Both the position numbers and the translations under genes were made by a program. The notes below the pieces were generated by a model. The model saw only the letters and a list, made by a program, of their open reading frames with translations. It made no database searches and was not told the DNA's origin. Source: a virus. From it: a stretch of DNA of 41,103 nt. Positions 664 through 36,640 of this stretch are shown one piece after another. Numbering within the stretch: position 1 is the first letter of the stretch; the number at the start of each line of letters is the position of its first letter. The stretch spans positions 1 through 41,103 of IMG/VR virus record IMGVR_UViG_3300020057_000069; one strand, given 5' to 3'.

Positions 664-716
664 TTGATTACTAGGAGGTTGCAAGATATAATTAACAGAG
701 TTTCAAGTTTAAAACT
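664..716 (+). promoter_or_regulatory. Operon joint 1: promoter plus +1 hairpin
   Basis: TTGATT (664-669), 17-bp spacer, TATAAT (687-692). The predicted +1 is A699, which begins a hairpin AGTTT (699-703), loop CAAGTTTA, AAACT (712-716). The promoter lies just after the stop codon at 658 and points into the terminator at 721-745. Confidence 0.75.
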
Positions 717-720
717 AAGA

Positions 721-745
721 AGCAGCTCGGAAGGCTGCTTTTTTT
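721..745 (+). terminator. Operon joint 1: intrinsic terminator touching the start codon
   Basis: Stem AGCAGC (721-726) / GCTGCT (734-739), then a T-run to 745, with ATG at 746. A transcript from the promoter at 687 would be about 46 nt if it ended here. Confidence 0.75.
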
Positions 746-862
746 ATGGAGAATATGGGAATAGCATTTAAGGGAAAACACACAAGATACATATCTTATA
801 TACCCACGGGCAATAGCTCAATCTATGGGTGGAAAGGTTTGGTGACTAAAATATGCCATTAA
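746..862 (+). CDS. Small hypothetical protein, 38 aa
   Basis: The ATG directly follows the terminator U-tract of joint 1 (TTTTTATGG), the position taken by the first gene at most other joints. The peptide starts MENMGIAFKGKHTRY and has no recognisable motif. Its end overlaps the next gene by 10 bases. No Shine-Dalgarno sequence is present, since the hairpin and T-run occupy that position. It could be a real leader gene of the operon or an artefact of the conserved ATGG after the T-run. Confidence 0.45.
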   Translation: MENMGIAFKGKHTRYISYIPTGNSSIYGWKGLVTKICH

Positions 863-3881: not shown

Positions 3882-3934
3882 TTGTATTTGTTTGTTAGTA
3901 AGTTTATAATTTAGGTAGTCAAAAGTTTATGACT
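3882..3934 (+). promoter_or_regulatory. Operon joint 2: promoter plus +1 hairpin
   Basis: TTGTAT (3882-3887), 17-bp spacer, TATAAT (3905-3910). The predicted +1 is A3917, the first base of a hairpin AGTCA (3917-3921), loop AAAGTTTA, TGACT (3930-3934). The stem differs from joint 1 but pairing is kept and the loop is nearly the same. Confidence 0.78.
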
Positions 3935-3938
3935 CATT

Positions 3939-3960
3939 GGCACCGCAAGGTGTCTTTTTT
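3939..3960 (+). terminator. Operon joint 2: intrinsic terminator
   Basis: Stem GGCACC (3939-3944) / GGTGTC (3949-3954) with a GCAA (GNRA) tetraloop and six Ts. The next ATG is at 3966, 5 bases after the T-run. Confidence 0.8.
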
Positions 3961-4761: not shown

Positions 4762-4814
4762 TTGCAAATCGTTTAATTGAGGTAGTATAATACGGCAAGT
4801 TCAAGCTTATAACT
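4762..4814 (+). promoter_or_regulatory. Operon joint 3: promoter plus +1 hairpin
   Basis: TTGCAA (4762-4767), 18-bp spacer, TATAAT (4786-4791). The predicted +1 A4798 begins AGTT (4798-4801), loop CAAGCTTAT, AACT (4811-4814). It starts 5 bases after the upstream stop codon. Confidence 0.75.
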
Positions 4815-4817
4815 CAG

Positions 4818-4840
4818 AACGCCAATATGGCGTTTTTTTT
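4818..4840 (+). terminator. Operon joint 3: intrinsic terminator
   Basis: AACGCC (4818-4823) / GGCGTT (4829-4834), loop AATAT, eight Ts. It is followed at once by GTG 4841, which opens only a 26-codon frame (4841-4921), unlike the ATG-started genes at the other joints. Confidence 0.78.
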
Positions 4841-4856: not shown

Positions 4857-5072
4857 TTAACTTAGATCAAAAAGCTGAAAGAATGATTCAACCCAAGATT
4901 TTTTATAAGAGAAATAGATAAAAGATGCAATAAAACATAGAAGCAATGAGAGTTCAAAGACACCTTTTACCCTTTCAGATTCAGGTGTGGGAAATATTAA
5001 CGCCAATATAACAGAGAGAAAAAATTGCAAGGGAAGAGTTGTACATAAAGAAACAATTAGTATTTTTTTCAT
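4857..5072 (-). CDS. Candidate small membrane protein, minus strand, 71 aa
   Basis: The only convincing minus-strand frame. It starts MKKILIVSLCTT and contains two hydrophobic stretches (about residues 3-27 and 39-55) separated by a charged loop (PESERVKG), with a KK-W motif after the second. That is a plausible two-helix membrane topology. Without it, 4758-5074 would be a gap of over 300 bases. It lies between joint 3 and the gene at 5075, antisense to their transcript, as expected for a moron or late insertion. There is no Shine-Dalgarno sequence and no clear promoter. The frame could be fortuitous. Confidence 0.5.
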   Translation of the reverse strand: MKKILIVSLCTTLPLQFFLSVILALIFPTPESERVKGVFELSLLLCFIASFIYFSYKKSWVESFFQLFDLS

Positions 5073-5074
5073 AT

Positions 5075-6337
5075 ATGAGAAGCATATCACATAACCACTC
5101 AAATTACTACGGGATAGAAGAAAGAGTAAGTAGACTCCCTCATCTTCTAGGAAGTCTAGCTAATTTGTATGGTGCTACTCGATCTTTTGCAAAGGCAAAT
5201 CAATCAAGTCCTACAGCTGGAAAGCTCTGGGCAGGTACACCAGTATCTGATTTTTTAGTTGGAAAAGCTAAGGCTTCGTATACTCCACCAAGACCTCAAG
5301 TTTTGAGTTCAAAGACGGCTACCAATACCAATGCTGGTGTCATGGGGCCTCCTGGCCCACCAGCAGGCTACAGAGCCCCATCTAGTGGTGGAATGCCATC
5401 AAGCGCAGCTCCCCAGAATAATCTTCCAAAGCAACCATATCAATCTATCAAAGATAAACAGGACAACGGAAACAACCAGATTGATGATGACTATAACCAG
5501 TCAATGGCAATGCTTGATCAGGCATCCTCAGGCCTACAAGGTCAGGCAGGATCAGCACAGGATCAGATAACAAACGATGCGGCTGCGGCGCAAACTTCAC
5601 TTGGATCAGCACAGACAACAGGAGAACAAGGAGTACAATCATCCCTCTCAACAGCAGAGGGTCTAGGAAAGAACGCACTGCAACAGGCTCGAGACCTATT
5701 CAGGCAAACAAACCAGCAAAACAACGCTCAGTTGTCAGCACTTGGTATCTCATCGTCCTCCGTTTCAGAGGCACTCGCCGAAAGGCTCGGGGTCGAAACA
5801 GCTCGTAGAATAGCAGGCGTGAGTGGATCACTCGATGAGGTAAGACAAAATGCAGCAAACGAGGTTGGGAGAATTAAAAACTATTATTCTGAAAAGAAGG
5901 TACAACTTGATGAGAATGTCCGTATTCAGAAAGATCAGATCCAACAGTCACTCATGCAAGGGCTCAATCAAATTAACAACGCACGAGGACAGGCATCTCA
6001 GGCGAAATCATCAGCACGGGCAAACTTAATCTCGCAGGTGCAGGATCAAGTCTATCAACTTACAGCACAACAGCAACAGTTTGATCAGGCATTGCGAGAA
6101 TGGGCGCAACAGAAAAGCGCAGCGCTTACGCCTATTGCTCAAGACCAGAACTATCTGAATAGCGTCATTTCGAATATGCAAAACTTACAAACAAATCCAG
6201 CCTTATCAGGATTTAATGTGACCGCGGGGATTAATCAAAACGCAAAAAGCCAATATTCTAGCTCTTATAACATTGTGCCTAAGAAAAAACCTCAAGACGA
6301 TCCGCTAGCAGAGCTCTATAATCAAGCAGGAATCTAG
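5075..6337 (+). CDS. Coiled-coil internal virion/ejection-like protein, 420 aa
   Basis: Rich in Gln, Ala, Asn and Ser, with a Pro/Gly-rich N-terminal third (including GPPGPPAG) and then a long predicted coiled coil from about residue 135 to 370. It lies between the nozzle-like gene and the polyvalent gene, where podoviruses keep internal or ejection proteins. The start is uncertain. ATG 5075 follows TTTTTTTCATAT with no Shine-Dalgarno sequence; an in-frame TTG at 5039 has a weak GGGAAG site but would overlap the minus-strand gene. The N-terminus may have been altered by insertion of that gene. Confidence 0.6.
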   Translation: MRSISHNHSNYYGIEERVSRLPHLLGSLANLYGATRSFAKANQSSPTAGKLWAGTPVSDFLVGKAKASYTPPRPQVLSSKTATNTNAGVMGPPGPPAGYRAPSSGGMPSSAAPQNNLPKQPYQSIKDKQDNGNNQIDDDYNQSMAMLDQASSGLQGQAGSAQDQITNDAAAAQTSLGSAQTTGEQGVQSSLSTAEGLGKNALQQARDLFRQTNQQNNAQLSALGISSSSVSEALAERLGVETARRIAGVSGSLDEVRQNAANEVGRIKNYYSEKKVQLDENVRIQKDQIQQSLMQGLNQINNARGQASQAKSSARANLISQVQDQVYQLTAQQQQFDQALREWAQQKSAALTPIAQDQNYLNSVISNMQNLQTNPALSGFNVTAGINQNAKSQYSSSYNIVPKKKPQDDPLAELYNQAGI

Positions 6338-10478: not shown

Positions 10479-10530
10479 TTGTAATTTAACAATTAGGGGA
10501 TTATAATGTATCTAGTCAGATCTTACTGAT
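10479..10530 (+). promoter_or_regulatory. Operon joint 4: promoter plus +1 hairpin
   Basis: TTGTAA (10479-10484), 17-bp spacer, TATAAT (10502-10507). The predicted +1 A10514 begins AGTCAG. GTCAG (10515-10519) pairs with CTGAT (10526-10530) across an ATCTTA loop, with one G-U pair. The leader is nearly the same as at joint 7. Confidence 0.78.
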
Positions 10531-10533
10531 CAC

Positions 10534-10557
10534 GGCACCAGGTAGGTGTCTTTTTTT
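10534..10557 (+). terminator. Operon joint 4: intrinsic terminator touching the start codon
   Basis: GGCACC (10534-10539) / GGTGTC (10545-10550) followed by seven Ts and then ATG 10558. Confidence 0.8.
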
Positions 10558-10677
10558 ATGGCTAGAAAAGCAAAAGCTCCAGTCAGAAAAATATTTAAGC
10601 TAAAATCCCTCTCAGTACGAAGGGGGGTAGTGAAGATTCCGCGTCTTCCACGAATAAAAAGCAAGCGGATAAAATGA
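10558..10677 (+). CDS. Very basic 39-aa peptide
   Basis: Encodes MARKAKAPVRKIFKLKS... with about 15 Lys/Arg in 39 residues and no acidic residue. The start follows the terminator T-run and the end overlaps the next ATG by ATGA. A peptide this basic could bind nucleic acid, such as packaged DNA or the leader RNA, but no family is recognised. The coding call rests on position and the ATGA overlap. Confidence 0.6.
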   Translation: MARKAKAPVRKIFKLKSLSVRRGVVKIPRLPRIKSKRIK

Positions 10678-11666
10678 ATACATCGCTCGTTAGCAAATAC
10701 TCATACCTCGTAAACTGGTTTGCCAATACTGAGATTGGAAAAGACTACCTCTCTCACAGAGGTATTATATTACCCAAAAAACAACTCATCATTCATTCAA
10801 ACGGCTATACATCGCGCGAAGGAAAGGGTGAATATCGCCATGTAGCGTCGACTGACAGTCTTCATATGGAGAAGAAGCTATTTCCAGCACTTAGAACAAT
10901 AGATGCTGTCTCGATGCGTCTTAATGACTTCAATGAGGCAAAGGATATTTTTCTCTGGGGACTAGGATTACGCAACAACTCATTTCTTCCTACACTCGTA
11001 AAGCAATTCCACTTTGCGCAATCAACTTTTACGCCTAATGCAAGTAACGTTGATGGCCGTGTAGGAAGGTCAGCGGGGAATGAATCATGGGCTAATAAGC
11101 GAGGCAATGTGGGAGACGTAGCGCAGACCGCTTCAGGTTCCGGTCCACAGATAAACGCAAGCGCAGATGCTGGGAATCCGTGGAGTGAGCTATTTAGAAG
11201 ACCTGAACCTGCTGACACCTCTGCTCTACCTGATACTGCAACCATTCAAAATACTTCGAAATTCCGTGTTTACGTCAATACAAAAACAACAACCCTTGCA
11301 AGTCAAAGCCTCGCCTTGGTTACAACAACTGGCCCTGCTAGCCTTACTGCGTTAGCTAATGGCGATTACGACGTGGCAGGTTGGGGTAGTACAAGGCAGG
11401 CTACCGACCTAACACTAGCAGGCATTACAACGAGCGCATTCAATGACTTTACCCTTAATAGTACAGGTGTTGGAAATATCAGCAAAACAGGGGTAACGAG
11501 GTTGGGACTTCGGATAGCAGCGGATGCAGATAATGCAGAGCCTTCCTGGTCATCAGGTGTAATTGCAGGATTGACAGTTGATCCATATAACGGCACAAAT
11601 CCCATGCAGTATGTTATCGACTATACACTTCCATCATCAGCAATAGGATCATTTACATTTCTATAA
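10674..11666 (+). CDS. Hypothetical virion protein, 330 aa
   Basis: It overlaps the basic peptide gene by ATGA. The N-terminal 125 residues are mixed helix/strand with many aromatic and basic residues (KYSYLVNWFANTEIGKDYL). The C-terminal half is a Thr/Ala/Ser-rich beta region (FRVYVNTKTTTLASQSLALV, TRLGLRIAADAD). The second half resembles beta-sandwich tail or appendage proteins. It lies between the polyvalent gene and the lysis cassette. Function unknown. Confidence 0.55.
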   Translation: MNTSLVSKYSYLVNWFANTEIGKDYLSHRGIILPKKQLIIHSNGYTSREGKGEYRHVASTDSLHMEKKLFPALRTIDAVSMRLNDFNEAKDIFLWGLGLRNNSFLPTLVKQFHFAQSTFTPNASNVDGRVGRSAGNESWANKRGNVGDVAQTASGSGPQINASADAGNPWSELFRRPEPADTSALPDTATIQNTSKFRVYVNTKTTTLASQSLALVTTTGPASLTALANGDYDVAGWGSTRQATDLTLAGITTSAFNDFTLNSTGVGNISKTGVTRLGLRIAADADNAEPSWSSGVIAGLTVDPYNGTNPMQYVIDYTLPSSAIGSFTFL

Positions 11667-11668
11667 AT

Positions 11669-11968
11669 ATGAAAGAAAGATATTCAGCAGCAGACGCTAA
11701 TGAAATCACAGTCAAAGCAGCTATAGACTCAGCAACCAGTAACGCAAAGATGGGTGAACAAATAACATATCTTGTCAAAGGATTTGATATTTTGAATATG
11801 AAAGTCGATAGCTTCTCGAATGCGTATGTCTCGGTACGGGATTTTACGCAGATAGAGGATCGAGTAAAACAAGCTGAGAATAAGGTTGAGACAATGCAGA
11901 AGTATCTTTGGCTAGGTGTGGGTGGACTTACTGTTATAACTTTTTTCCTAAAGTTTTTCGTAAAATGA
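11669..11968 (+). CDS. XhlA-like membrane protein, 99 aa
   Basis: Residues about 30-77 form a predicted amphipathic coiled coil (DFTQIEDRVKQAENKVETMQ), followed by one C-terminal transmembrane helix (YLWLGVGGLTVITFFLKFFV). This layout and the adjacent amidase match haemolysin XhlA-type lysis accessory proteins of phages from Gram-positive hosts. It overlaps the amidase start by ATGA, so translation is probably coupled. Confidence 0.6.
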   Translation: MKERYSAADANEITVKAAIDSATSNAKMGEQITYLVKGFDILNMKVDSFSNAYVSVRDFTQIEDRVKQAENKVETMQKYLWLGVGGLTVITFFLKFFVK

Positions 11969-12828
11969 ACATACAATGGGTTCCAAGCCCAAACTTCGAT
12001 AAGAATAGACTGCCTATTACGCACATCTTCATTCATTGGATTGTAGGAAATCTTGCTGCTGCTGATGCACAGTTCAAGAAAACTACCCCAGGAACCTCAG
12101 CCCATTATGGGATAGAGGATGACACAATACACCAATACGTTAAAGATGATGCAGTTGCTTATCATGCAGGGGTATATTCGTGGAATCAAAAAAGCATTGG
12201 CATTGAACATTCAGCAGCACCAGATAGATTAGCCTCTGAGAAGACCTACAAGACATCGGGACAGCTTATTGCCGAGATATGTACCAAATACCACATTCCG
12301 TTAAATCGTGAGCATATCAAGGGTCATAAAGAGGTACGCAACACACAATGCCCCGGCACGATGGATATTGATAAGCTCATTCGGGTAGCTAAGACGTTTA
12401 TGGGAGTCGATCCGCAGATTGAGCTGGATAAACTTCGCACAGAGCGAGATCGTAATTGGACCTACTTTGCCGGACTTTGCGACATCATGCAAGTACAGCC
12501 TAACTACGATATTGCAGCGGGAGAGTTAAAGAAGCTTGTTAGCTTTCAGGATGTATTGTTTCATAAGGAATCGCAACTGAAAGATGCTGATAAGAAAATC
12601 TCAGATCTTCAGATAGACCTAGTGAAGATAACAAAGGAACACGATAAGACAGTAGCCGAGAATACAAGCCTTGTCGAAGAAGCTAGGAGACAGAGTGACC
12701 GTATCAGCAAGCAGGAAGGGCAGATCAACACAGTCTCAGAGCAGCTAGATCAGTTGAAAAAACAATGCAGTATGACTGTTCTGACAGGTTATAAGAAACT
12801 AATCTATGACCTGTTAATAAAGGGGTGA
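11965..12828 (+). CDS. Endolysin, N-acetylmuramoyl-L-alanine amidase (Amidase_2/PGRP fold), 287 aa
   Basis: The N-terminal catalytic domain (about residues 1-145) has the zinc ligands H24 (THIFIHW), H121 (IKGHKEV) and C129 (TQCPG), plus SAHYGIE and SIGIEHS of the PGRP/T7-lysozyme fold. It should cut the amide bond between muramic acid and the stem peptide. Residues about 205-265 are a long coiled coil in place of a known wall-binding repeat, possibly an oligomerisation stalk. There is no signal peptide, so release depends on holin-like neighbours. ATG 11965 is chosen for the ATGA overlap. Confidence 0.88.
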   Translation: MNIQWVPSPNFDKNRLPITHIFIHWIVGNLAAADAQFKKTTPGTSAHYGIEDDTIHQYVKDDAVAYHAGVYSWNQKSIGIEHSAAPDRLASEKTYKTSGQLIAEICTKYHIPLNREHIKGHKEVRNTQCPGTMDIDKLIRVAKTFMGVDPQIELDKLRTERDRNWTYFAGLCDIMQVQPNYDIAAGELKKLVSFQDVLFHKESQLKDADKKISDLQIDLVKITKEHDKTVAENTSLVEEARRQSDRISKQEGQINTVSEQLDQLKKQCSMTVLTGYKKLIYDLLIKG

Positions 12829-12832
12829 TGCT

Positions 12833-12895
12833 ATGGGAATATTATTAACCATATTAGCGATACTTATTATTTTAAAACTCTTTGGAGTTATATAA
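12833..12895 (+). CDS. 20-aa transmembrane peptide
   Basis: MGILLTILAILIILKLFGVI is a single hydrophobic helix with one Lys. An AGGGGTGAT ribosome-binding site precedes ATG 12833 and the stop runs into the AAAGGAGGTGA site of the next gene. Placed just after the endolysin, it is a candidate micro-holin or lysis regulator. Confidence 0.55.
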   Translation: MGILLTILAILIILKLFGVI

Positions 12896-12911
12896 AGGAG
12901 GTGAGTTATTT

Positions 12912-13103
12912 ATGAGTCTTTCAAATACCATTATTAAGGTTATCGGTATTATTCTTGCGATTGTGGGACTTCTTCTTATTCTTTCAATTGTAGGACTAGG
13001 GTTTGGAGTATCACTTCAGCCTTGGTTTCTCGCATTGATTGTAGGAGTCGTTTTCTTAGGAGCTGGAATATATATTATCCGAGGGGGAAATTTTACCCTC
13101 TAA
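12912..13103 (+). CDS. Small two-helix membrane protein, possible holin, 63 aa
   Basis: Two hydrophobic helices (about residues 7-31 and 36-56) joined by a short GFGVSLQP turn, with a basic C-terminal tail. ATG 12912 is chosen because it follows a near-perfect AAAGGAGGTGA site with ideal spacing; an upstream in-frame start at 12882 would include that site. Length and topology fit a class II holin. No sequence family is recognised. Confidence 0.6.
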   Translation: MSLSNTIIKVIGIILAIVGLLLILSIVGLGFGVSLQPWFLALIVGVVFLGAGIYIIRGGNFTL

Positions 13104-13116
13104 AGGAGGTGAGTAT

Positions 13117-13356
13117 ATGAGACCTAGTAAGTCAATGTCACTTAATCATACCGACTGGAAAAATATTCTTCGCGGTGGTGTTATCTTTGTTGCGCCTGTT
13201 ATCTTAATTTATTTTGCACAAGTCACAGGAGCATTATCAGTTGAGGGTCATGCCTTCTCAGTGAGAGATTTTATTCCCTCTACTTTTACACAGGGAAGCA
13301 TGGTGCTTTTCGTTCTAAATAGACTGACAGATATACTTCGTAAATTTGTTAGCTAA
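13117..13356 (+). CDS. Holin-like membrane protein, 79 aa
   Basis: An AAAGGAGGTGA site precedes ATG 13117. One strong hydrophobic helix (GGVIFVAPVILIYFAQV, about residues 20-38) and a weaker C-terminal one (TQGSMVLFVLNRL), with charged ends. Position in the lysis cassette suggests a holin or antiholin paired with the preceding gene. The stop overlaps the next start by one base (TAATG). Confidence 0.55.
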   Translation: MRPSKSMSLNHTDWKNILRGGVIFVAPVILIYFAQVTGALSVEGHAFSVRDFIPSTFTQGSMVLFVLNRLTDILRKFVS

Positions 13357-13826
13357 TGGCAGTCGAGAAATATATCCGTGGTAAAAAGGATGATTGCTCT
13401 CACCACGGCAGACGTTCAGAAGTAAGACGGCTGGCAGAGAGCAACAATCAATTAAAGGAATATATGAGTCACGAGCGATATACACCAGAGGATAGAACTA
13501 GAGTGCCTTTCCGCAATGAGGAGTGGCATGCGTTGAGTGGTAGAGAGAATCGTATGCCTAACCAGTTCGGGCAACCAGACGCAGCAGTAGTGTTTGTTTA
13601 TGGACTAGGAGAAGGATCTGGGGGCTTTAGGCATACAAACCATCATGGAGAGGCTTTCATCGTTCCTGGTGTGAACTGTGACGCTGAGGAGGCATCCCAA
13701 TTAGCGGCAAGGGGGGCTGTTTTTCCTCTTGAGATAGCGCAACCAGTACCTGCTGCATCATTTGAAACCGAAGCACAATGGTTTAAACCTATCCATAATC
13801 TCAGCGATGACAGGAAAAATACGTAA
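13356..13826 (+). CDS. Hypothetical soluble protein, 156 aa
   Basis: Starts by TAATG overlap with the membrane protein gene. The N-terminal third is basic and His-rich (DDCSHHGRRSEVRR); the middle has a beta-like core (DAAVVFVYGLGEG, GEAFIVPGV); the end is acidic and Pro-rich. No family is recognised. It ends the late operon just before joint 8. Confidence 0.55.
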   Translation: MAVEKYIRGKKDDCSHHGRRSEVRRLAESNNQLKEYMSHERYTPEDRTRVPFRNEEWHALSGRENRMPNQFGQPDAAVVFVYGLGEGSGGFRHTNHHGEAFIVPGVNCDAEEASQLAARGAVFPLEIAQPVPAASFETEAQWFKPIHNLSDDRKNT

Positions 13827-13843
13827 GTGCCACAAAGATGTAG

Positions 13844-13907
13844 TTGCTTCTTTATCATAGAGAATGTAATATGGATTTAGATCAGCTTGTGGGAACAGAT
13901 TTTTTTT
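13844..13907 (+). promoter_or_regulatory. Operon joint 8: promoter plus +1 hairpin with its own T-run
   Basis: TTGCTT (13844-13849), 17-bp spacer, TAATAT (13867-13872). The predicted +1 A13879 begins AGATC (13879-13883), which can pair with GATTT (13898-13902, one G-U) across 14 nt. The 3' arm runs into eight Ts (13900-13907), so this first hairpin could itself end transcription. Confidence 0.55.
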
Positions 13908-13924
13908 GTTGATTAATCAGAAAA

Positions 13925-13962
13925 TCCCCGATGTTTACCACAAGTAGGCGTCGGGGTTTTTT
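13925..13962 (+). terminator. Operon joint 8: intrinsic terminator before the early region
   Basis: CCCCGATG (13926-13933) pairs with CGTCGGGG (13949-13956), one G-U, followed by six Ts. The ATGG after the T-run opens only a 4-codon frame (13963-13977) that includes the AAAGGAGG site of the true start at 13979. Confidence 0.8.
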
Positions 13963-13978
13963 ATGGAAAGGAGGTAAT

Positions 13979-14218
13979 ATGTTGCCATTTGTAAGTGTTG
14001 CATTAAGAGTTATAGACGAATTGCATATCATGGACAAAAAAGGGTCGGGAATGATTATGCGATTTGCCAAATTATATTCTCCTGAGAAGATGGGAGAAAT
14101 TATGAAAGAAGCAAAGAAGCTTTATTGGTGGGAGAATAATCCAGTCGCAGCGTTTATGGTTTCTATTAAGGCAGTAAATACCAAGGAGAAAGAGCATGGA
14201 CAATACTGGTTGGGTTAA
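13979..14218 (+). CDS. Hypothetical protein, 79 aa, first early gene
   Basis: ATG 13979 follows AAAGGAGGTAAT. A mainly helical protein (VALRVIDELHIMDKKGSGMIMRF) ending in a Trp-rich segment (KLYWWENNPVAAFMVS). It overlaps the DnaD-like gene by 23 bases. It is the first gene after joint 8, so probably among the first made after infection. Function unknown. Confidence 0.65.
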   Translation: MLPFVSVALRVIDELHIMDKKGSGMIMRFAKLYSPEKMGEIMKEAKKLYWWENNPVAAFMVSIKAVNTKEKEHGQYWLG

Positions 14219-14921
14219 ATTACACCGCAAAATTCTTGACAATGGAATAATGAAAGATGCCACTGCTTGGCAGGTTTTTAGCTGGCTTCTTTTAATGGTT
14301 GACAGAAAGACCGGAAAAGCAAATTTTGGTAGGTTTTGGGCTAGTAAGAGTTTAGGGCTTAACAGCAACACATTTTATAAAGCTCTCTTAAGATTATCAA
14401 AAAAGTGGCAAATGGTAACACTAAGCAGTAACAACAAATTTACAGAATGTAGCCTCATAAATTGGGAAAAGTATCAATCTGGTAACAGCGATGGTAACAA
14501 CAAAGTAACAACAAGGGAACAACAAAGTAACACTATACAAGAAGTAGAGAATATAGAATTAAGAATATTATCTGCTGATAATACAGAAAAAGAAAAACAT
14601 CCCAATAAGCTCTTACTAAACAAATCCCAACAAATGATGTTCTTAAAAGAGTTTCCCGGACTTGCAACGTCAGAATTAGTTGAGCAAAAAGAGAAATGTA
14701 ATGCCTATATGACCATGTCATCGAAGAATTATACCAACCCCGGTCTATTCTTCCGAGGATGGTTAAGAACCCATATGAGCGAAAAGACAACCAAGATATC
14801 CATTGACGTAGAAACTGCTAAGGTAATCGCTCCCTTGATTTCTCCTGAAGAAGAAGCGGCTGGTAAAAAGAAGCTGCAGGAGATTAGGGTGAGATTAAAA
14901 AATAAATTTTCCATAAATTAG
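14196..14921 (+). CDS. DnaD-like phage replisome organiser, 241 aa
   Basis: Residues 1-90 (GWVKLHRKILDNGIMKD, WQVFSWLLLMVDRKTG, GLNSNTFYKALLRLSKK) match the winged-helix N-terminus of phage replisome organisers and DnaD/primosomal initiators. The middle is Asn/Thr/Gln-rich and probably disordered. The C-terminal part (NPGLFFRGWLRTH) resembles the helicase-loading segment. Such proteins bind the origin and recruit host helicase, in line with the absence of a phage polymerase. AAGGAGAAAGAGC precedes the ATG. Confidence 0.75.
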   Translation: MDNTGWVKLHRKILDNGIMKDATAWQVFSWLLLMVDRKTGKANFGRFWASKSLGLNSNTFYKALLRLSKKWQMVTLSSNNKFTECSLINWEKYQSGNSDGNNKVTTREQQSNTIQEVENIELRILSADNTEKEKHPNKLLLNKSQQMMFLKEFPGLATSELVEQKEKCNAYMTMSSKNYTNPGLFFRGWLRTHMSEKTTKISIDVETAKVIAPLISPEEEAAGKKKLQEIRVRLKNKFSIN

Positions 14922-14922
14922 T

Positions 14923-15144
14923 ATGAATAAGACTACCTTAGAACACTTACAGCACCTTCGGCAAGACATACAACAAATAGAAGATAGGCTGGCACTACTT
15001 CGTGTGGCCTGGGTAAAGGCATCTCCCGGACAAAAGAGGTATATAGTATCTGTGGCGAAGGTTTCAAAAGAAGAGTTGGCTAGGTTGAAGGTAAAGCTGG
15101 ATAAAAACGCTGCGCTTGACAAGCAACTAACAGTCCGTGTATAA
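14923..15144 (+). CDS. Helical hypothetical protein, 73 aa
   Basis: Starts one base after the replisome organiser gene. Strongly helical with heptad-like Leu spacing (LEHLQHLRQDIQQIEDRLALL), so a coiled coil is likely. Its last codons contain the -35 element of the next promoter and its stop codon lies in the -10. Function unknown; it could partner the replication protein. Confidence 0.6.
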   Translation: MNKTTLEHLQHLRQDIQQIEDRLALLRVAWVKASPGQKRYIVSVAKVSKEELARLKVKLDKNAALDKQLTVRV

Positions 15145-15145
15145 T
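15116..15145 (+). promoter_or_regulatory. Consensus promoter giving a leaderless mRNA
   Basis: TTGACA (15116-15121), 18-bp spacer, TATAAT (15140-15145), lying in the 3' end of the upstream gene. The predicted transcript start (15152-15153) coincides with ATG 15153. Confidence 0.75.
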
Positions 15146-15152
15146 TATCTGT

Positions 15153-15290
15153 ATGGACTTCAAAGACCACAAGGAAATCTTCGCAGAGATGGGAAGAGTC
15201 TCCAGAAAGAAACGCTTAGAAGGAATGACCCCTAAGCAAATAAGCGATTACATGAAAAGGGTTAGAGCAGGTAAAAAGGAAGCTAAATAG
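15153..15290 (+). CDS. Basic small protein, 45 aa, leaderless
   Basis: Encodes MDFKDHKEIFAEMGRVSRKKR... with a basic C-terminus (KRVRAGKKEAK). There is no Shine-Dalgarno sequence. The TATAAT ending at 15145 puts the transcript start at or next to the ATG, so initiation is probably leaderless. The strong promoter and early position suggest a host take-over or regulatory factor. No family is recognised. Confidence 0.6.
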   Translation: MDFKDHKEIFAEMGRVSRKKRLEGMTPKQISDYMKRVRAGKKEAK

Positions 15291-15307
15291 CAAAACTCTT
15301 ACAGGAC

Positions 15308-15336
15308 TTGACAAGACAAACAGTTTGTGATACACT
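15308..15336 (+). promoter_or_regulatory. Promoter with palindromic spacer (possible operator)
   Basis: TTGACA (15308-15313), 17-bp spacer, TACACT (15331-15336). The spacer holds a palindrome ACAAAC-A-GTTTGT (15316-15328), the classic place for a repressor site. The predicted start is 1-2 bases before ATG 15345. Confidence 0.7.
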
Positions 15337-15344
15337 ACCATCAC

Positions 15345-15590
15345 ATGAAGCTCACAGCATACGATCTATCGGAATTATTCATCGCATCGGCAGAAAGACA
15401 CCTCAGCGTTGCAAAGATAGCTAATTCTCAAACGCATTTTTACTCTGAAAAAGTAGGCGCGGAAATACTCCAAGCTATGCAGGATAACTATGACTCGGAG
15501 AAAGAATATACCTCACAGATAGAGTGGCTGACATTAGCAGATCAAAGCAAAGAGATAGACCTAATCGAGTTACACGGAGGAACGATATGA
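15345..15590 (+). CDS. Hypothetical protein, 81 aa, leaderless
   Basis: Helical, acidic protein (LSELFIASAERHLSVAKIAN). A GTG at 15327 is in frame but lies inside the promoter, so ATG 15345 is preferred. The promoter places the 5' end within 2 bases of this ATG and there is no Shine-Dalgarno sequence. It overlaps the transglycosylase gene by ATGA, so this start should set expression of both. Function unknown. Confidence 0.6.
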   Translation: MKLTAYDLSELFIASAERHLSVAKIANSQTHFYSEKVGAEILQAMQDNYDSEKEYTSQIEWLTLADQSKEIDLIELHGGTI

Positions 15591-16114
15591 GAAGCAGATT
15601 AAACAGACAGGGTAGCAATCAATATCGAAACAAGAGGCGTTCATCGTGGAAGATCTACACTTTCGGATACATCATCGTTGTGCTTCTTTTCATCCTGACG
15701 GCTCAGTATTACAAGAATGAAGGTGCTGCCAAGGTTTACGCTGAGGAAGTTTATACAGCAGAAAACATCATCTCCCCACTCGCTGACGAGCCAAAGGTTA
15801 AAGAGGCCACTGATAAACAGTCGATATCAATAAGAAATAAAATCCGTGAGGTATTCGGAGATCATGCTGATAAAGCGTTCAAGGTCCTCTCTTGTGAGAA
15901 TGCAGCACTTAATCCTAACGCAGTGAATACAGCAGGAAACGAGCCGGCAGGCAGTCGCGACATCGGAGTATTTCAAATCAACGAATATTGGCAGAAAACA
16001 CAGGGAAAGTTCTTATTCGATCCTGAGGTAAATATCAAAATCGCTTACATCATCTTTAAAGATAACGGCTATTCATTTGATCGTTGGACATGTGGAAGAA
16101 AGTTTGGAATCTAA
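15587..16114 (+). CDS. Membrane-anchored lytic transglycosylase (SLT fold), 175 aa
   Basis: A basic N-terminus is followed by one transmembrane helix (about residues 23-41, IYTFGYIIVVLLFILTA), then a linker and an SLT/lysozyme-like domain from about residue 84. E104 in SCENAALNPNAVN is the probable catalytic glutamate, followed by DIGVFQINEYW and a final AYIIFKDNGYSFDRWTC, all typical of the family. It should cut the glycan strand from outside the membrane. GGAGG precedes ATG 15587, which overlaps the upstream stop. It sits in the early region, far from the endolysin, so roles in entry, early wall change or superinfection exclusion are possible. Confidence 0.8.
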   Translation: MRSRLNRQGSNQYRNKRRSSWKIYTFGYIIVVLLFILTAQYYKNEGAAKVYAEEVYTAENIISPLADEPKVKEATDKQSISIRNKIREVFGDHADKAFKVLSCENAALNPNAVNTAGNEPAGSRDIGVFQINEYWQKTQGKFLFDPEVNIKIAYIIFKDNGYSFDRWTCGRKFGI

Positions 16115-16125
16115 GGAGGAAAATT

Positions 16126-16626
16126 ATGCCAGTTAATATACACGGAAAACAATACATCACAGTAGCAGAGAGACTTGCGGAAGCACGAGAGGATTTAGTC
16201 TCGATAAACACTGAGGTCATCCCTAATGGTGGATCAGTTGTTATCAAGGCAACAGTCGTGACAAAAAAAGGTACTTTCACAGGTATCTCAGCAGCGAACC
16301 CAAATAAGTCAATTGAGAAGCAATCCCCTTATGAAGTCGCTGAGACATCAGCAGTAGGTAGAGCCTTGGGGTTCGCAGGATACGGAGTAATCGACAGCAT
16401 TGCATCAGCTGATGAAATCGTAAAGGCTCAGGCAGTTCAGGAAGAGGATGACGGATTAGTGAGGGAAGTATACGAGGACAGGGCAACAATTGATGCGAGG
16501 CATCAACCAAGGACATGCTCTGAGCATCAAGTAGAGATGGAGCGGAAGATATCAGTAAAGACAGATAAAGCCTACTGGTCACACAGAGAGAATGGGCAAA
16601 TTTGTTTTGGGAAAGGACTTCAATGA
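16126..16626 (+). CDS. Single-strand annealing/ssDNA-binding-like recombination protein, 166 aa
   Basis: ATG 16126 follows AAGGAGG; the longer frame from 16084 would include that site. The pattern VNIHGKQYITVAERL, VVIKATV, then ETSAVGRALGFAGYG and SIASADEIV is what I recognise from phage ERF/Rad52-type or ssDNA-binding proteins. The C-terminus (CSEHQVEM ... YWSHRENGQICFG) looks like a small zinc-binding knuckle. With RusA nearby, the phage has an annealing-plus-resolvase recombination set. The subfamily is uncertain. Confidence 0.6.
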   Translation: MPVNIHGKQYITVAERLAEAREDLVSINTEVIPNGGSVVIKATVVTKKGTFTGISAANPNKSIEKQSPYEVAETSAVGRALGFAGYGVIDSIASADEIVKAQAVQEEDDGLVREVYEDRATIDARHQPRTCSEHQVEMERKISVKTDKAYWSHRENGQICFGKGLQ

Positions 16627-16691
16627 CTCTCATTGGTTGCAGCAATGTGGACGAGTGAGTAGTGGTGTGGTCTGAAAAGACAGGGATTTAC

Positions 16692-16738
16692 GCTAGGGGA
16701 GATCCTCGAAATGGGCAGAAACATTTTTCTCCCCTAGC
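16692..16738 (+). other. 11-bp perfect inverted repeat in an intergenic stretch
   Basis: GCTAGGGGAGA (16692-16702) and TCTCCCCTAGC (16728-16738) can pair around a 25-nt loop. No T-run follows, so it is not a standard terminator. It lies in a 129-base gap (16627-16755), the clearest non-coding element of the early region. It could be a structured RNA, protein-binding site or replication element. Confidence 0.6.
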
Positions 16739-16755
16739 AAACATAGAGTTGGACT

Positions 16756-17076
16756 ATGAAAACACAACAAGATAAAGTTTTACAGTTACTAAAAGCATCA
16801 GGATCTAGGGGTGTTAATTCCTACGACCTTACATATCTCCACGCAATTAAACAAGCACCGACTCGAATCTCCGAATTAAAAGAACAAAATCATCGGATAT
16901 TTTCACGCACAGAGAAGAATAGAAGCGTTACCTACATTTTACAAAGCAACTTTGTCCCCACCACCAAGAACAAAGAAACTGATGAAGAATATGTTTGGAT
17001 ATACGAAGAAAACTCTGCTCGTCGCGTTTCTAGATCTCAAATGAAGCCTACTCAATTAAACCTGAGTATGACTTGA
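16756..17076 (+). CDS. Helix-turn-helix protein, 106 aa
   Basis: The first 55 residues (QQDKVLQLLKASGSRGVNSYDLTYLHAIKQAPTRISELKEQ) form a winged-helix pattern like HTH_39 phage proteins, with ITR/RISELK as recognition helix. The C-terminal half is charged and less ordered. Probably a DNA-binding accessory or regulator. There is no obvious Shine-Dalgarno sequence. It lies just after the large inverted repeat, which it might bind. Confidence 0.65.
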   Translation: MKTQQDKVLQLLKASGSRGVNSYDLTYLHAIKQAPTRISELKEQNHRIFSRTEKNRSVTYILQSNFVPTTKNKETDEEYVWIYEENSARRVSRSQMKPTQLNLSMT

Positions 17077-17748: not shown

Positions 17749-17763
17749 TTTTCATACTGTCCT

Positions 17764-22211: not shown

Positions 22212-23404
22212 TCAAAACAACTGCCACGAAGAAGATATTTGAACTGAGGAGGCGTATTAGAGTTATTTCCGGAGGATCTTCTGCTTCAAAAACAATATCC
22301 GTCCTGATTTGGTGTATCAAAAGAGCGCAGTTTCCTCCAGACAAGACCCCTGAGCTAATTTCAATCGTATCAGAGACGTTTCCACATCTAAGGCGGGGAT
22401 CAATGAGGGATTTTCTTCTCATCATGGAGGAGCATAAAGTATTCAAAGACGCACAATGGAACAAGACTGATTGTATTTATACATTTGAATCAGGATCAAA
22501 GATTGAGTTCTTTTCGGCTGATCAACCTGGGAAAGTACGCGGTCCAAGGCGTGACATCTTGTTTATTAACGAGTGCAACAATATTTCCTATGAAACATAT
22601 ACCCAACTTGAAATCAGAACGAAGAAAATTATCTGGATGGATTTTAATCCTGTTCAAGAGTTTTGGGTGTATACAGAGCTTATCCCAAATATGGATCATG
22701 ACTTTTTAACGCTAACGTACAAGGACAATGAGGCACTTGATCCGGCTATTGTTGAGGCTATTGAATCACGAAAGGGGAACAAGAACTGGTGGAAGGTTTA
22801 CGGTTTAGGAGAGTTGGGGATGACTGAGGGCGTAGTGTATCCTCATTTTCTTCCACTTGATGATATTCCTCCCGATGCAAGGCTTGTAAGACGTGGAATG
22901 GATTTTGGATATACAGCTGATCCTACAGCAGTTCTTGATATTTATGAGTGGAACAATGCGTATGTTTGGGATGAGGTGCTCTATCGTAAGGGACTCAGCA
23001 ACAGAGACATTGCGGATGTGCTTATGAACTTACCAAAGGCATTAGTAGTTGCAGACTCAGCCGAGCCTAAATCAATTGATGAGATAAAGAATTACGGAAT
23101 AAATATTATCCCCTCTCAGAAGGGGCCAGGGAGCGTGCTACAGGGCATACAGTATGTTCAGGATCAGAAGATATATGTTACCAAGGGAAGCACAAATATA
23201 TGGCGTGAGCAGCGTAATTACTTATGGTTAATTGATAAAGACGGCAAGATCATTAATGAACCTTCTCCCTTCTTAAATCATTTGATGGACGCGGGGAGAT
23301 ATGGAATGGAAAGCTTGCGACCAATTGATCAAAAGGATCTTGAGCTCTACGGTGATAACTATCAGAAAGTAAACGAAGGGCTAGCCAACAAGTGGAGACT
23401 ATGA
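22208..23404 (+). CDS. terL: Terminase large subunit (PBSX/Terminase_3 type), 398 aa
   Basis: The ATPase half has Walker A GGSSASKT (residues 22-29) and Walker B ILFINE (117-122, E122 probable catalytic base). The RNase H-like nuclease half has D232 (MDFGYTADPTA), D283 (VVADSAEPKS) and D361 (HLMDAGRYG). These are the motor and headful or site nuclease of packaging. Length is normal for the family. Coupled by ATGA to both neighbours. The terminase class could help decide whether the 152-bp overlap reflects circular permutation. Confidence 0.93.
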   Translation: MIKTTATKKIFELRRRIRVISGGSSASKTISVLIWCIKRAQFPPDKTPELISIVSETFPHLRRGSMRDFLLIMEEHKVFKDAQWNKTDCIYTFESGSKIEFFSADQPGKVRGPRRDILFINECNNISYETYTQLEIRTKKIIWMDFNPVQEFWVYTELIPNMDHDFLTLTYKDNEALDPAIVEAIESRKGNKNWWKVYGLGELGMTEGVVYPHFLPLDDIPPDARLVRRGMDFGYTADPTAVLDIYEWNNAYVWDEVLYRKGLSNRDIADVLMNLPKALVVADSAEPKSIDEIKNYGINIIPSQKGPGSVLQGIQYVQDQKIYVTKGSTNIWREQRNYLWLIDKDGKIINEPSPFLNHLMDAGRYGMESLRPIDQKDLELYGDNYQKVNEGLANKWRL

Positions 23405-23724
23405 ACAAGTCACTGCCTACAATAGAGCAAGATCCATATAAGATCGAAACGGAGAATAATGATAAGAAAGTCTCGGTTCTTTTTGCCTCACTCTTTCCTG
23501 AGACTGCTGTGCCTTATGAGTATATCTTTGATGTAGTGAGGCTTTTAGAAAGCACTAAGGTTAACGCCAGAATCCTTCCTGAGGTGATAAGGGGAATATA
23601 CAATCTCAATAGTCATAATAGGAAAGGGCAGGTAATTGTTCATGTTTCACGTGAGCTTACAAATATTCAGATAAGGGAGAATAGTGAAACAATGAGTACC
23701 TTATCGGAAGATGAGGAAAAGTAA
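23401..23724 (+). CDS. Hypothetical protein after terminase, 107 aa
   Basis: ATG 23401 overlaps the terminase stop by ATGA; a GTG at 23392 is the alternative. A mixed helix/strand protein (YEYIFDVVRLLESTKVNARILPEVI, described in parts) with a strand-rich end (GQVIVHVSRELTNIQI). No family is recognised. It ends one base before the -35 of joint 5. Confidence 0.6.
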   Translation: MNKSLPTIEQDPYKIETENNDKKVSVLFASLFPETAVPYEYIFDVVRLLESTKVNARILPEVIRGIYNLNSHNRKGQVIVHVSRELTNIQIRENSETMSTLSEDEEK

Positions 23725-23772
23725 TTGATATTTAGATAAAAAGAGTATAAAATGTAGGAAATCGTCAAGATT
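23725..23772 (+). promoter_or_regulatory. Operon joint 5: promoter plus +1 hairpin
   Basis: TTGATA (23725-23730), 17-bp spacer, TAAAAT (23748-23753). The predicted +1 A23760 begins AATC (23760-23763), loop GTCAA, GATT (23769-23772). An alternative pairing AGAT/ATCT (23768-23771 with 23775-23778) excludes it. Confidence 0.65.
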
Positions 23773-23778
23773 GTATCT

Positions 23779-23807
23779 AAGACGGGTCGAAAGACTCGTC
23801 TTTTTTT
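23779..23807 (+). terminator. Operon joint 5: intrinsic terminator before the portal gene
   Basis: A 10-bp stem (23779-23788 with 23793-23802, one G-U) capped by a GAAA tetraloop and followed by a T-run to 23807. Strongest terminator of the set. The portal ATG is 9 bases later. Confidence 0.88.
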
Positions 23808-29137: not shown

Positions 29138-29186
29138 TTGCAAGCGAAACAAATCCATGATATATTGATTTAGTCTAGTACAGACT
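29138..29186 (+). promoter_or_regulatory. Operon joint 6: promoter plus +1 hairpin
   Basis: TTGCAA (29138-29143), 17-bp spacer, TATATT (29161-29166). AGTCT (29172-29176), loop AGTAC, AGACT (29182-29186) starts 6 bases after the -10. The joint follows an 80-base stretch (29057-29137) where I see only a weak possible promoter (TTGACT ... TACTTT). Confidence 0.68.
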
Positions 29187-29202
29187 TACTGTCCTACGGC
29201 CA

Positions 29203-29236
29203 GACACCTTCAGCGATAGCTCGGGTGTCTTTTTTT
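29203..29236 (+). terminator. Operon joint 6: intrinsic terminator touching the start codon
   Basis: GACACC (29203-29208) / GGTGTC (29224-29229) with a small inner AGC/GCT stem, then seven Ts and ATG 29237. Confidence 0.78.
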
Positions 29237-30985
29237 ATGGCTAAAATTGCCGCTGGTTTAATAATAAAGAACGACTCAGAGCTGGAAATCCTCAAAAGAG
29301 CAGTAGGATCAATCATCAAAGACGTTGATGCAATCTACATAACCTCTACTTCGACACCAAACTATAAAATAGAAAAGTTCTGTAAGGAAATAGGAGCTCA
29401 GTACTCTTTCTTTCCGTGGGTCAATGACTTCTCAAAAGCGCGTAATTTCAATATGGCGCAGATCCCCGCTGAGTATGAGTGGTACTTCTGGATGGATACT
29501 GATGACGTTGTACAGGGTGCTGAGACCTTCAGGGATGCCATCACTATTGCTGAGGCTAATAACATCAAAGCAGTCTTCGCCCGTTATCTGTATCAGGTAG
29601 AACTTGATGGGAAGGGAAAGATCAAGAATATTCTCATTGAACACCTCAGAGAGAGATTGATAAGAAATGATGGTACATATGAATGGGTAGCACCTATTCA
29701 TGAGACACTCATTGAGAAAGTACCCGCAGGAAAAACTGACTTTCAAGGCTTCTGTGTTGTTCACTTGATGGCTGCTGATCAGATGGAAAAATCTATGTGG
29801 AGAAATATTGCCATTCTTGAGCAGAACATCATTGATAATCCTGCTGATCCCCGCCCTGTCTACTACCTAGCTAAAGCGTATTTTGATACACGGATTCCCG
29901 AGGTTTTAAGTGAGCCAATTGGAGAAGGACTGGATTCTTTGATGATTGAGCTGGTTAAGGTATATCTTGCTACATCAGGATGGGCTGAGGAGCGCGCGCA
30001 GGCGTGGGAGTATATGTCAATGGTATATCGGGAGCGTCAGGACTTTAAGGAGGGCATTAACTGCCTCATGAATGCGCTCAAAGAAGATCCTAAATTTACC
30101 TCAGCATATATTCAACTCGCCCTCTCTTATGTTCTGATGAAGGATTGGGAGAAGGCAATGCATTGGGTCAAAATGGCTGGAAATGTTGATATTCCTAAAA
30201 CTACGCTTGTTATTAATCCTAAAGACTACAAGGTGATGATTCTTGAGGCGTTGTTCCACATCTACTTAAATACAGGGAAGTTAGACGAAGTAGTTAAGGT
30301 AGCAACAGACCTGAATGAGATGCTTCCTAACGATCTCAATGCAAATCGGGTGAAGGATGTCATAGATCTTAAGGGGAGAAACGATCTCGCGCATTATATT
30401 GTTAAGCTTGCTCATCATCTCAGCAAGACAGGACAGGTCGAGCAATTGGAGAACTTAGTAGTCTCAATTCCACTTGAAATAGCTAACGAGCCGGCGATGG
30501 TTGATCTTAGAAATCAATTTACTAAGCCACGAATATGGGCAGATGATGAGATAGCAATCTTCTGCGGTCCTGGATTTGAACAATGGAGCTGGAAATCGGT
30601 AGCAAGGGGCATCGGCGGATCTGAGGAGGCTGTCATTTACATGAGCCATGAGTTAGCAAAGCTAGGGTGGAAAGTATACATCTATGCAGATCCACAGCAG
30701 GATGCAGGAGTACATGACGGCGTAGTGTGGATTCCTTACCATCAAATCAACTGGAGAGATCAATTTAATATTCTAATTGGCTGGAGGAATATTGGATTAT
30801 TTGATGTTCCTACTCTGAAAGCGAAAAAATCGTACCTCTGGAATCATGACATCCAGAACGGATTAACGTATACCCCTGAGAGGGTGAATAAGATAACGAA
30901 GGCAATGTTTTTGAGCAAATGGCATCGGGAGAACGTACCGCAGCTAGATGAGATGAAGGTAATGTACACGGGTAATGGTATATGA
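29237..30985 (+). CDS. GT2 glycosyltransferase with TPR-like region and the N-terminal half of a GT-B enzyme, 582 aa
   Basis: Residues 1-190 are a GT-A (family 2) domain with the metal-binding D87-T-D89-D90 in WMDTDDV. Residues about 195-420 are helical repeats of TPR type (QAWEYMSMVYRERQDFKEGI, AYIQLALSYVLMKDWEKAM). Residues about 431-582 match the N-terminal Rossmann half of a GT-B (family 4) enzyme (GGSEEAVIYMSHELAKLGWKV, AMFLSKWHRENVPQL, VMYTGNGI). The protein stops exactly where the second Rossmann half should begin; that half is in the next protein. It starts on the joint 6 terminator and overlaps the next gene by ATGA. Confidence 0.78.
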   Translation: MAKIAAGLIIKNDSELEILKRAVGSIIKDVDAIYITSTSTPNYKIEKFCKEIGAQYSFFPWVNDFSKARNFNMAQIPAEYEWYFWMDTDDVVQGAETFRDAITIAEANNIKAVFARYLYQVELDGKGKIKNILIEHLRERLIRNDGTYEWVAPIHETLIEKVPAGKTDFQGFCVVHLMAADQMEKSMWRNIAILEQNIIDNPADPRPVYYLAKAYFDTRIPEVLSEPIGEGLDSLMIELVKVYLATSGWAEERAQAWEYMSMVYRERQDFKEGINCLMNALKEDPKFTSAYIQLALSYVLMKDWEKAMHWVKMAGNVDIPKTTLVINPKDYKVMILEALFHIYLNTGKLDEVVKVATDLNEMLPNDLNANRVKDVIDLKGRNDLAHYIVKLAHHLSKTGQVEQLENLVVSIPLEIANEPAMVDLRNQFTKPRIWADDEIAIFCGPGFEQWSWKSVARGIGGSEEAVIYMSHELAKLGWKVYIYADPQQDAGVHDGVVWIPYHQINWRDQFNILIGWRNIGLFDVPTLKAKKSYLWNHDIQNGLTYTPERVNKITKAMFLSKWHRENVPQLDEMKVMYTGNGI

Positions 30986-35843: not shown

Positions 35844-36580
35844 TTTCAGTTATTACTCCATCAGTAAGAGATGAGATGCTTCCGATTATTGAGAAGTGCC
35901 TAAAGCGTCAGGACTTTGATGATTTTGAGTGGATTATAACTAGTCCAATTGAAATTGCCTCGGTTATGCCTACGCTACTTCTCAAAGATCCTCCAAAGCT
36001 TCCTGGTGACTTCTATACACTGTGCAAAGGCTGGAATCAAGCATATGCTCATGCAAAGGGTGAATTAATTGTTAATATTCAGGATGGCATTTGGTTTCCT
36101 CCTGATATCCTATCGAAGTTTTGGTTTCACTATCAGAATAAGCCTCGGGCGTTGCTCTCAGCGATAGGTCATCAATACGATAGCTTTGATGATCTCGGTG
36201 TACCGACAAACAAAATGTGGCATGATCCAAGGTCTAAATCAGACATATCGTTTGAAGAAGTTGCACCAAGTGAAATAGAGATGGTTCTTTGCTCTATACC
36301 TAGACAAGCGCTTATTGAATGTGGAGGAATCGATGAGGAATATGATACTTGCGCTGCGGTTTGTGAAAAGGAGATGTGCTGGCGGTTGAATGAACTAGGC
36401 TGGGATTTCTACATTGATCACACGATTGAGTATAAAGCTATCCACCATCCGAGGCTCAATGATGACTGGGAGAGAGTGTATCGTGAGAAATCTACTCCGT
36501 TATTCATAAAACACATGAAAGAACGTTCAGCAGGCACAAGAACGCTTAATGTTGACAATTTGTTGAAATACATTGCATGA
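35840..36580 (+). CDS. Glycosyltransferase-like protein (GT-A), 246 aa
   Basis: MISVITPSVRDEMLPIIEKC and GWNQAYAHAKGELIVNIQDGIWFPP match the start and metal-site region of a GT-A enzyme, with QDG instead of DxD. GGIDEEYDTCAAVCEKEMCWRL is like the acceptor-side loop. It ends the glycan operon, and its last codons contain the -35 of joint 7. Confidence 0.7.
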   Translation: MISVITPSVRDEMLPIIEKCLKRQDFDDFEWIITSPIEIASVMPTLLLKDPPKLPGDFYTLCKGWNQAYAHAKGELIVNIQDGIWFPPDILSKFWFHYQNKPRALLSAIGHQYDSFDDLGVPTNKMWHDPRSKSDISFEEVAPSEIEMVLCSIPRQALIECGGIDEEYDTCAAVCEKEMCWRLNELGWDFYIDHTIEYKAIHHPRLNDDWERVYREKSTPLFIKHMKERSAGTRTLNVDNLLKYIA

Positions 36581-36614
36581 GAGGGTATAATGGTTTTAGT
36601 CAAATCTTATTGAT
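36563..36614 (+). promoter_or_regulatory. Operon joint 7: promoter plus +1 hairpin
   Basis: TTGAAA (36563-36568), 17-bp spacer, TATAAT (36586-36591). The predicted +1 A36598 begins AGTCAA; GTCAA (36599-36603) pairs with TTGAT (36610-36614) across an ATCTTA loop. Compared with joint 4, both sides of one base pair change (G-C to A-U). Confidence 0.78.
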
Positions 36615-36617
36615 CAT

Positions 36618-36640
36618 GGCGCCTTAGAGGGCGTTTTTTT
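36618..36640 (+). terminator. Operon joint 7: intrinsic terminator next to the start codon
   Basis: CGCC (36620-36623) / GGCG (36630-36633), extendable with G-U pairs, then seven Ts; ATG at 36642. The weakest stem of the set. Confidence 0.65.

Follow-up and report, generated by a model that had tools for sequence, protein, structure and literature searches.

The window, by which we mean the whole stretch of 41,103 bases analysed here, is IMG/VR virus record IMGVR_UViG_3300020057_000069. A 152-base repeat is common to both of its ends, and its long, annotated-looking genes lie on the + strand throughout. T-runs stand behind a terminator-like stem at eight joints, at 739, 3955, 4833, 10551, 13957, 23801, 29230 and 36634, which we name J1 to J8 in that order. 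At seven of the eight (J1 to J4 and J6 to J8), a -10 box lies 5' of the hairpin, with its end 41 to 63 nt before the T-run, and a TTG-type -35 at a spacer of 17 to 18 nt completes a sigma70-like promoter. The order of parts at these seven joints is promoter, leader, terminator-like hairpin and gene, placing a terminator between promoter and first gene as in an attenuator. Because the -10 box is upstream of the hairpin, we read the hairpins as belonging to the leaders of the operons that follow. The gap between promoter and first gene of late gene blocks in this uncultured phage group seems to hold a tiny RNA off/on switch, and the T-run before the start codon seems to act as that switch's stop signal and to be more than the mere end of the block before it. 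The parts of the window leaders, with the upstream hairpins listed as putative antiterminators, are as follows.

664..692, + strand: J1 promoter (TTGATT, 17 nt, TATAAT)
700..723, + strand: putative J1 antiterminator (GTTTC a AGTT taa AACT aa GAAGC), whose 3' strand is the terminator's first bases
719..745, + strand: J1 terminator-like hairpin with T7
746..862, + strand: putative 38-aa ORF of J1, start on the U-tract, without conservation
3882..3910, + strand: J2 promoter (TTGTAT-17-TATAAT)
3918..3941, + strand: putative J2 antiterminator (GTCAA a AGTT tat GACT ca TTGGC)
3939..3960, + strand: J2 terminator hairpin with T6; gene start ATG 3966
4762..4840, + strand: J3 promoter and leader (TTGCAA-18-TATAAT; terminator hairpin 4816-4836, T8)
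10479..10507, + strand: J4 promoter (TTGTAA-17-TATAAT)
10515..10536, + strand: putative J4 antiterminator (GTC a GATC ttact GATC ac GGC)
10534..10557, + strand: J4 terminator hairpin with T7, then ATG 10558, opening a basic 39-aa ORF that overlaps the next start at 10674
23401..23724, + strand: conserved 107-aa protein, candidate regulator, its gene just 5' of leader J6
23725..23753, + strand: J6 promoter (TTGATA-17-TAAAAT)
23762..23785, + strand: putative J6 antiterminator (TCGTC a AGAT tgt ATCT aa GACGG)
23779..23807, + strand: J6 terminator hairpin with T7; portal start ATG 23817
29138..29166, + strand: J7 promoter (TTGCAA-17-TATATT)
29167..29236, + strand: longer J7 leader, in which no antiterminator was found; its terminator-like hairpin starts at about 29202 and is followed by T7
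29237..30985, + strand: first gene of the J7 operon (582 aa), with a conserved N-terminus and its ATG immediately after the U-tract
36563..36591, + strand: J8 promoter (TTGAAA-17-TATAAT)
36599..36620, + strand: putative J8 antiterminator, weaker, score 7.5 (GTCA a ATC ttatt GAT ca TGGC)
36618..36640, + strand: J8 terminator hairpin with T7, then one C and ATG 36642, N-terminus conserved

This arrangement exceeds chance, as judged by 200 dinucleotide shuffles of the window in which the end of the -10 box was required 36 to 71 nt before the T-run. Terminator-like stems precede 9 of the 16 T-runs of six or more on the + strand (shuffles: mean 0.21, maximum 2), the ninth, at 5251, sitting inside a gene, and 0 of the 36 on the - strand. 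Stem, T-run and -10 box occur together in the seven window leaders (shuffles: mean 0.035, maximum 1), and a stem with an upstream -10 box and an ATG within 1 nt occurs four times in the window and in none of the 200 shuffles. The identical test on the coding strand of other records gave counts of seven in G004, six in G007, five in G010, and two each in G008 and G006.

At J5 (joint 13926-13962), no -10 box was found within the range tested; its stem of 13 pairs is longer than those at the other joints, and the next gene, at 13979, has a normal Shine-Dalgarno (SD) site. Within 13880-13962, an upstream CTTGTGG is complementary to CCACAAG of the hairpin loop region, and the fold z is -4.2. The early-type region that follows, 13963-23724, is without a leader of the kind seen at the other seven joints. 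It has features of its own: a perfect TTGACA-18-TATAAT at 15116-15153, with its expected transcription start on ATG 15153, may serve a leaderless early gene; about 15 tandem 21-nt units at 18245-18564, inside ORF 18094-18627, encode a heptad-like DKAYQAR/GKANQA repeat; and short early ORFs at 18616-21826 have 5' ends that recur (ACCTTTACTTATATGAAAAAACTAACTAAAGAAGAACAA and ACAAGGAGAGTAAATAATATGAAA) and resemble duplicated start cassettes. Elsewhere, an 81-aa ORF with two hydrophobic stretches lies directly behind J3 on the - strand (4857-5102) and may be an insertion that has pushed the start of the J3 gene out of place, and 29237-36580 holds a long glycosyltransferase/methyltransferase-like late module that is conserved across the clade.

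Leaders in related phages and the upstream hairpin

Searches of viral_contigs with portal and capsid gave overlapping sets of 14, 13, 31 and 25 loci. The leader scan returned 43 distinct hits with a -10 box, and 39 were kept, 7 from the window and 32 from related IMG/VR phages; three hits were left out as judged spurious (L027+1775, L030-1191 and L045+14959), as was L027-9037, probably a true leader, which has no start within 20 nt. A -35 with a TTG start accompanies 7/7 window leaders and 30/43 scan hits. All 39 kept leaders have the form of an intrinsic terminator, a GC-rich hairpin with a T-tract directly after it, the length of T6 or more being fixed by construction of the scan. Leaders are syntenic with those of the window in 6/6 cases in G007 and 6/7 in G004, at the positions of window genes 853, 3966, 5039, 23817, 29237 and 36642. 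G004 is slightly shorter than the window. There, 21 window genes had tblastn matches, and of these only 23401-23724 lies outside the late modules; no window gene from 10558 to 23404 had a match.

Among 27 portal loci, down to 29% identity, 20 have a hairpin with T-run just 5' of the portal start that scored above every one of 40 shuffles. The signal was weak in L026, L054, L055 and L058, and the script detected none in L045, L046 and L051; visual inspection does show stems with T-runs before the portal in L046, L051 and L054. The absent or weak portal-leader terminators of the distant relatives L045, L055, L026 and L058 count against an attenuator reading. At L102:6763, L103:10929 and L106:10966, a terminator after the capsid gene has a promoter-like site 3' of it, which is the usual arrangement and unlike that of the leaders. 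Hairpin and T6 sites in named phages numbered five in MW202497, one in MW202710 and none in MW202524, MN698244 or NC_010325 (LUZ24), and in these five records no site was read as such a leader. Portal alignment against genome_contigs gave no match, and capsid alignment gave one relative (L098, 38%) on a Candidatus Moraniibacteriota MAG contig, which may be a weak hint of a Patescibacteria host or a binning artefact.

When leaders were folded only to the end of the terminator 5' arm, 35/39 formed at least three pairs with that arm, a count taken without a shuffle control, and against shuffles the folds were modest (mean energy z -1.13; p 0.05 or below in 8/39). An independent hairpin ending 5' of the terminator, tried as an alternative description, was rejected as weaker (mean z -0.85; 8/39 at p 0.05). 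The recurrent form, of about 22 to 26 nt, is an outer stem, a single 1x2 internal loop in which one base stands opposite two, an inner stem of three to five pairs and a loop of three to six bases. With a score of 8 or more, the exact form occurs in 15/39 leaders and in a mean of 0.35 (maximum 3) after shuffling, for a descriptor derived from the same 39 leaders on which it was scored. At a score of 7.5, it is found in 19/39 leaders with their own terminator arm vs 198/1480 with swapped arms, a conservative control since related leaders have arms in common. The leaders thus carry, as attenuators do, an alternative hairpin that excludes the terminator by using the same 5' arm, with J3 and J7 of the window giving no match to the descriptor. 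The unpaired single base of the internal loop is A in 18/19, and the first base of the loop is T in 16/19. The first pair lies a median of 7 nt after the -10 box, so the hairpin would begin at about the first transcribed base; the covarying hairpin begins near the predicted +1 in about half of the leaders.

Both arms of this hairpin covary across phages. In nine portal leaders, 93.1% of cells are paired vs 76.6 in shuffles, 6/8 pairs have changes on both sides, and the covariation score is 0.625, a value reached by 0/500 shuffles and by no slid register (at most 0.181); further pair types are no more numerous than in shuffles (157/500). A covariance model built from these nine leaders alone was searched in 726 kb, and its best four hits outside its own class were window J3 (4793-4840, E 0.0018), window J1 (695-745, E 0.0048) and leaders in L033 and L037. 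Up to E 1, 12/16 further rows were leaders and 4/16 were not; even at E 10, the model gave no hit at window J2, J4, J7 or J8. The predicted fold energy of J6 is -16.5 with the 3' arm, as terminator, vs -5.3 kcal/mol for the antiterminator, which would make the terminator the stable state and fits termination by default. Rfam had no family up to E 1 in the window, and for 20 of 34 leader loci it gave only four chance-level matches, far below cut-off.

Start codons behind the T-runs

An earlier note on this DNA had proposed that start codons sit directly on the terminator U-tracts, leaving no room for an SD sequence. The positions are as it described at four joints: T7 runs at 739-745, 10551-10557 and 29230-29236 lead straight into ATG at 746, 10558 and 29237, and T7 at 36634-36640 is followed by C and the ATG at 36642. 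At J3, T8 (4833-4840) does run into GTG 4841, but this codon is unsupported as a start because it opens only 26 codons and because, in G007, a 211-aa ORF has its ATG 4 nt behind the syntenic leader. Abutment of T-run and ATG is above chance at the four joints but not universal across leaders, the offset being 0 nt in 15 of the 32 leaders that have an ATG start, 1 nt in 1 and 4 to 17 nt in 16.

For two of the starts, support comes from orthologues that share the N-terminus. Those of 29237 have M(A/S)KIA, or a close variant, at the N-terminus, and those of 36642 align from residue one, as do those of 3966; an ATG lies 0 to 1 nt after the T-run in 5/7 leaders of the 29237 class and 6/6 of the 36642 class. 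Portal starts lie 0 to 17 nt behind the T-run. For the putative ORFs at 746 (38 aa) and 10558 (39 aa), tblastn found no relative among 18 contig groups, and three relatives have AAAGGAGGTGA, a strong SD, between T-run and gene at the position of J1 (739). The lack of room for an SD therefore holds for 29237 and 36642 but not for the family. The proposed contrast with internal genes stands on average: anti-SD energy has a mean of -3.4 at 32 T-run starts (-6 or below in 7/32) and of -5.6 at 43 internal window genes (-6 or below in 21/43), so SD sites are not uniformly absent behind T-runs. A GGTG-like SD hidden in the 3' arm of the terminator was considered and dropped, as the 32 starts showed no consistent difference from shuffles (mean p 0.37).

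The same note had suggested that a ribosome covering the terminator stem could tie initiation to termination. Control of the same transcript's termination in this way is impossible, because the start codon is made only after the U-tract. The anatomy does support a link between the two, but of another kind, since the hairpins lie 3' of their own operon's promoter and would be undone by an upstream antiterminator hairpin.

Probable attenuation and the other readings of the leaders

We consider it probable that the joints are promoter-proximal terminator/antiterminator attenuators of about 45 nt, which would keep late operons off by default. Host RNA polymerase would start at the sigma70-type promoter of each late operon, and the first 25 nt or so of leader RNA would fold into the small antiterminator, whose 3' strand is the start of the terminator's 5' arm. 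Where the antiterminator does not hold, the stabler terminator and its U-tract would release the transcript some 45 nt after its start, upstream of every gene. Late in infection, all the operons would be turned on at once by a factor that makes the antiterminator more stable or helps polymerase through in another way. Read-through would leave the terminator's 3' arm and the U-tract free directly ahead of the start codon, where they could act as a landing site for the ribosome, and the compactness of the leader would account for the U-tract lying beside that codon.

A broader version of this reading, which we hold only tentatively, is that attenuation is distributed: every late operon would have its own switch of about 45 nt from the first transcribed base, a single phage factor or a state of the polymerase or the RNA 5' end would flip all of them, and the same pairs would both gate transcription and free the ribosome site. 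Such a diffusible phage factor could perhaps be the conserved product of 23401-23724, the gene immediately upstream of the portal leader.

The hairpins could instead be ordinary terminators of upstream operons that abut the next gene, with -10 matches arising by chance. A hairpin with a T-tract is the usual end of an operon, the capsid-gene terminators of L102, L103 and L106 do precede a promoter-like site, and joint 13926-13962 lacks a -10 box within the range tested. This is very unlikely given the -10 boxes 41 to 63 nt upstream at 7/8 window joints (shuffle mean 0.035), the recurrence of the promoter-hairpin order in relatives and the covariation of bases before the stem with the terminator arm; as the sole reading of the joints, end-of-operon terminators were set aside on account of the upstream promoters. 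It is also quite unlikely that hairpin and U-tract are no terminator at all and form a cap-like stabiliser of the mRNA 5' end or a translation element such as an S1 or standby site. Start codons 0 to 1 nt from the U-tract in 16/32 leaders and weak SD sites at T-run starts would suit such an element, yet the stem and T6-8 are kept where the offset ranges over 0 to 17 nt and where a strong SD lies behind the T-run, and the alternative hairpin that destroys the stem is itself conserved.

Two further readings concern the upstream hairpin. The leader RNA might itself modify RNA polymerase constitutively in cis, as HK022 put does, with no factor needed. A leader that begins at about +1, with two hairpins and phage-wide use, is consistent with this, as is the presence of leaders in both G004 and the window, whose early genes are not common to G004. 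The two hairpins have bases in common, however, and the antiterminator sequence varies much between leaders, unlike putRNAs as they appear in the available part of their description (PMC9378689); we regard this reading as unlikely. The small dyad behind the promoter could also be a DNA operator and not an RNA hairpin, a view to which the AGTC-like dyad start common to window leaders lends itself. We find it more improbable than any of the others, for the two arms vary in step, both among the leaders of one phage and between phages, and the 3' arm of the dyad is the terminator arm.

Candidate factors and known systems

If attenuation by a diffusible factor is the correct reading, the protein encoded at 23401-23724 is a weak candidate for the regulator of the leaders, with a small chance of being so. 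By profile, it was found in 26/38 loci searched (E 6e-8 or better), its gene usually directly before the portal leader and 2 to 7 kb off in L026, L045, L047 and L048; no homologue was found in L058, although a portal is present. Co-occurrence with the leaders is weak evidence, because the protein is in any event conserved along with the clade. After a poor first structure model (pLDDT 65), a second (pLDDT 89.6) predicted three helices and a beta hairpin, with no Foldseek match at E 0.001, no PDB relative and a best Z of 3.1 over 43 residues in VIA. Similarity to DUF2292 was below cut-off (best E 0.003). Homologues are acidic in 18/24, which speaks against plain RNA binding. Among known factors, CAT_RBD was matched in 0/6 phage records (control matches in 4/14 genomes; a host protein is possible) and Pfam Phage_antitermQ in 0/6 (control matches in 2/14). 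The NusG domain of LoaP and RfaH-type paralogues was matched in 0/6, as was the ANTAR domain, for which the control was likewise silent everywhere; host factors are possible for both.

In lambda-type late control, Q acts at pR'/tR', where a terminator close to the promoter blocks late transcription. The leaders described here resemble it in both the position of the terminator and the blocked late transcription they would impose, and differ in number, with one promoter per phage there and about seven leaders here, and in lacking a Phage_antitermQ match in the six records. Attenuators of the BglG/SacY/LicT RAT type are bacterial terminator/antiterminator switches with RNA-binding proteins. Like the leaders here, they have a short hairpin whose bases extend into the 5' arm of an intrinsic terminator, and they are off by default, as the leaders would be. 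Here, in contrast, the hairpin has about 22 to 26 nt with one 1x2 internal loop, CAT_RBD is matched in none of the six records, and the same minimal form stands before most late operons of one phage.

HK022 put, too, is an RNA element of a phage; it lies immediately downstream of a promoter and relieves termination, as the leaders would. As far as the available part of PMC9378689 describes them, putRNAs are about 70 nt long, of similar sequence and made of two stem-loops, and put is present in two copies and acts on distant terminators without protein. Set against that description, the leaders do not hold two independent stem-loops in about 70 nt; their terminator lies inside the leader and has bases in common with the first hairpin. 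Naville and Gautheret (2010, PMC2965389) catalogued premature-terminator attenuators across bacterial genomes, and the available part of that catalogue deals with bacterial genes and with prophage 3' terminators exapted upstream of cellular genes. The likeness lies in a terminator between promoter and gene with a possible antiterminator; the difference, relative to that part, is that here phage operons each have their own switch. Attenuators and put RNA are therefore the nearest known kinds, and a search of the open-access literature found no description of such leaders.

Phages control their late genes through new sigma factors, polymerases of their own, activators or a single antitermination event. 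Genome-wide minimal attenuators, if the reading is true, would represent another layout for late control, with about seven independent copies per genome, and would explain why SD-poor start codons are placed on U-tracts. About seven copies, together with covariation across phages, would allow the smallest functional terminator/antiterminator switch to be tested directly in vitro, and the leaders give a sequence handle for calling operons in uncultured phages.
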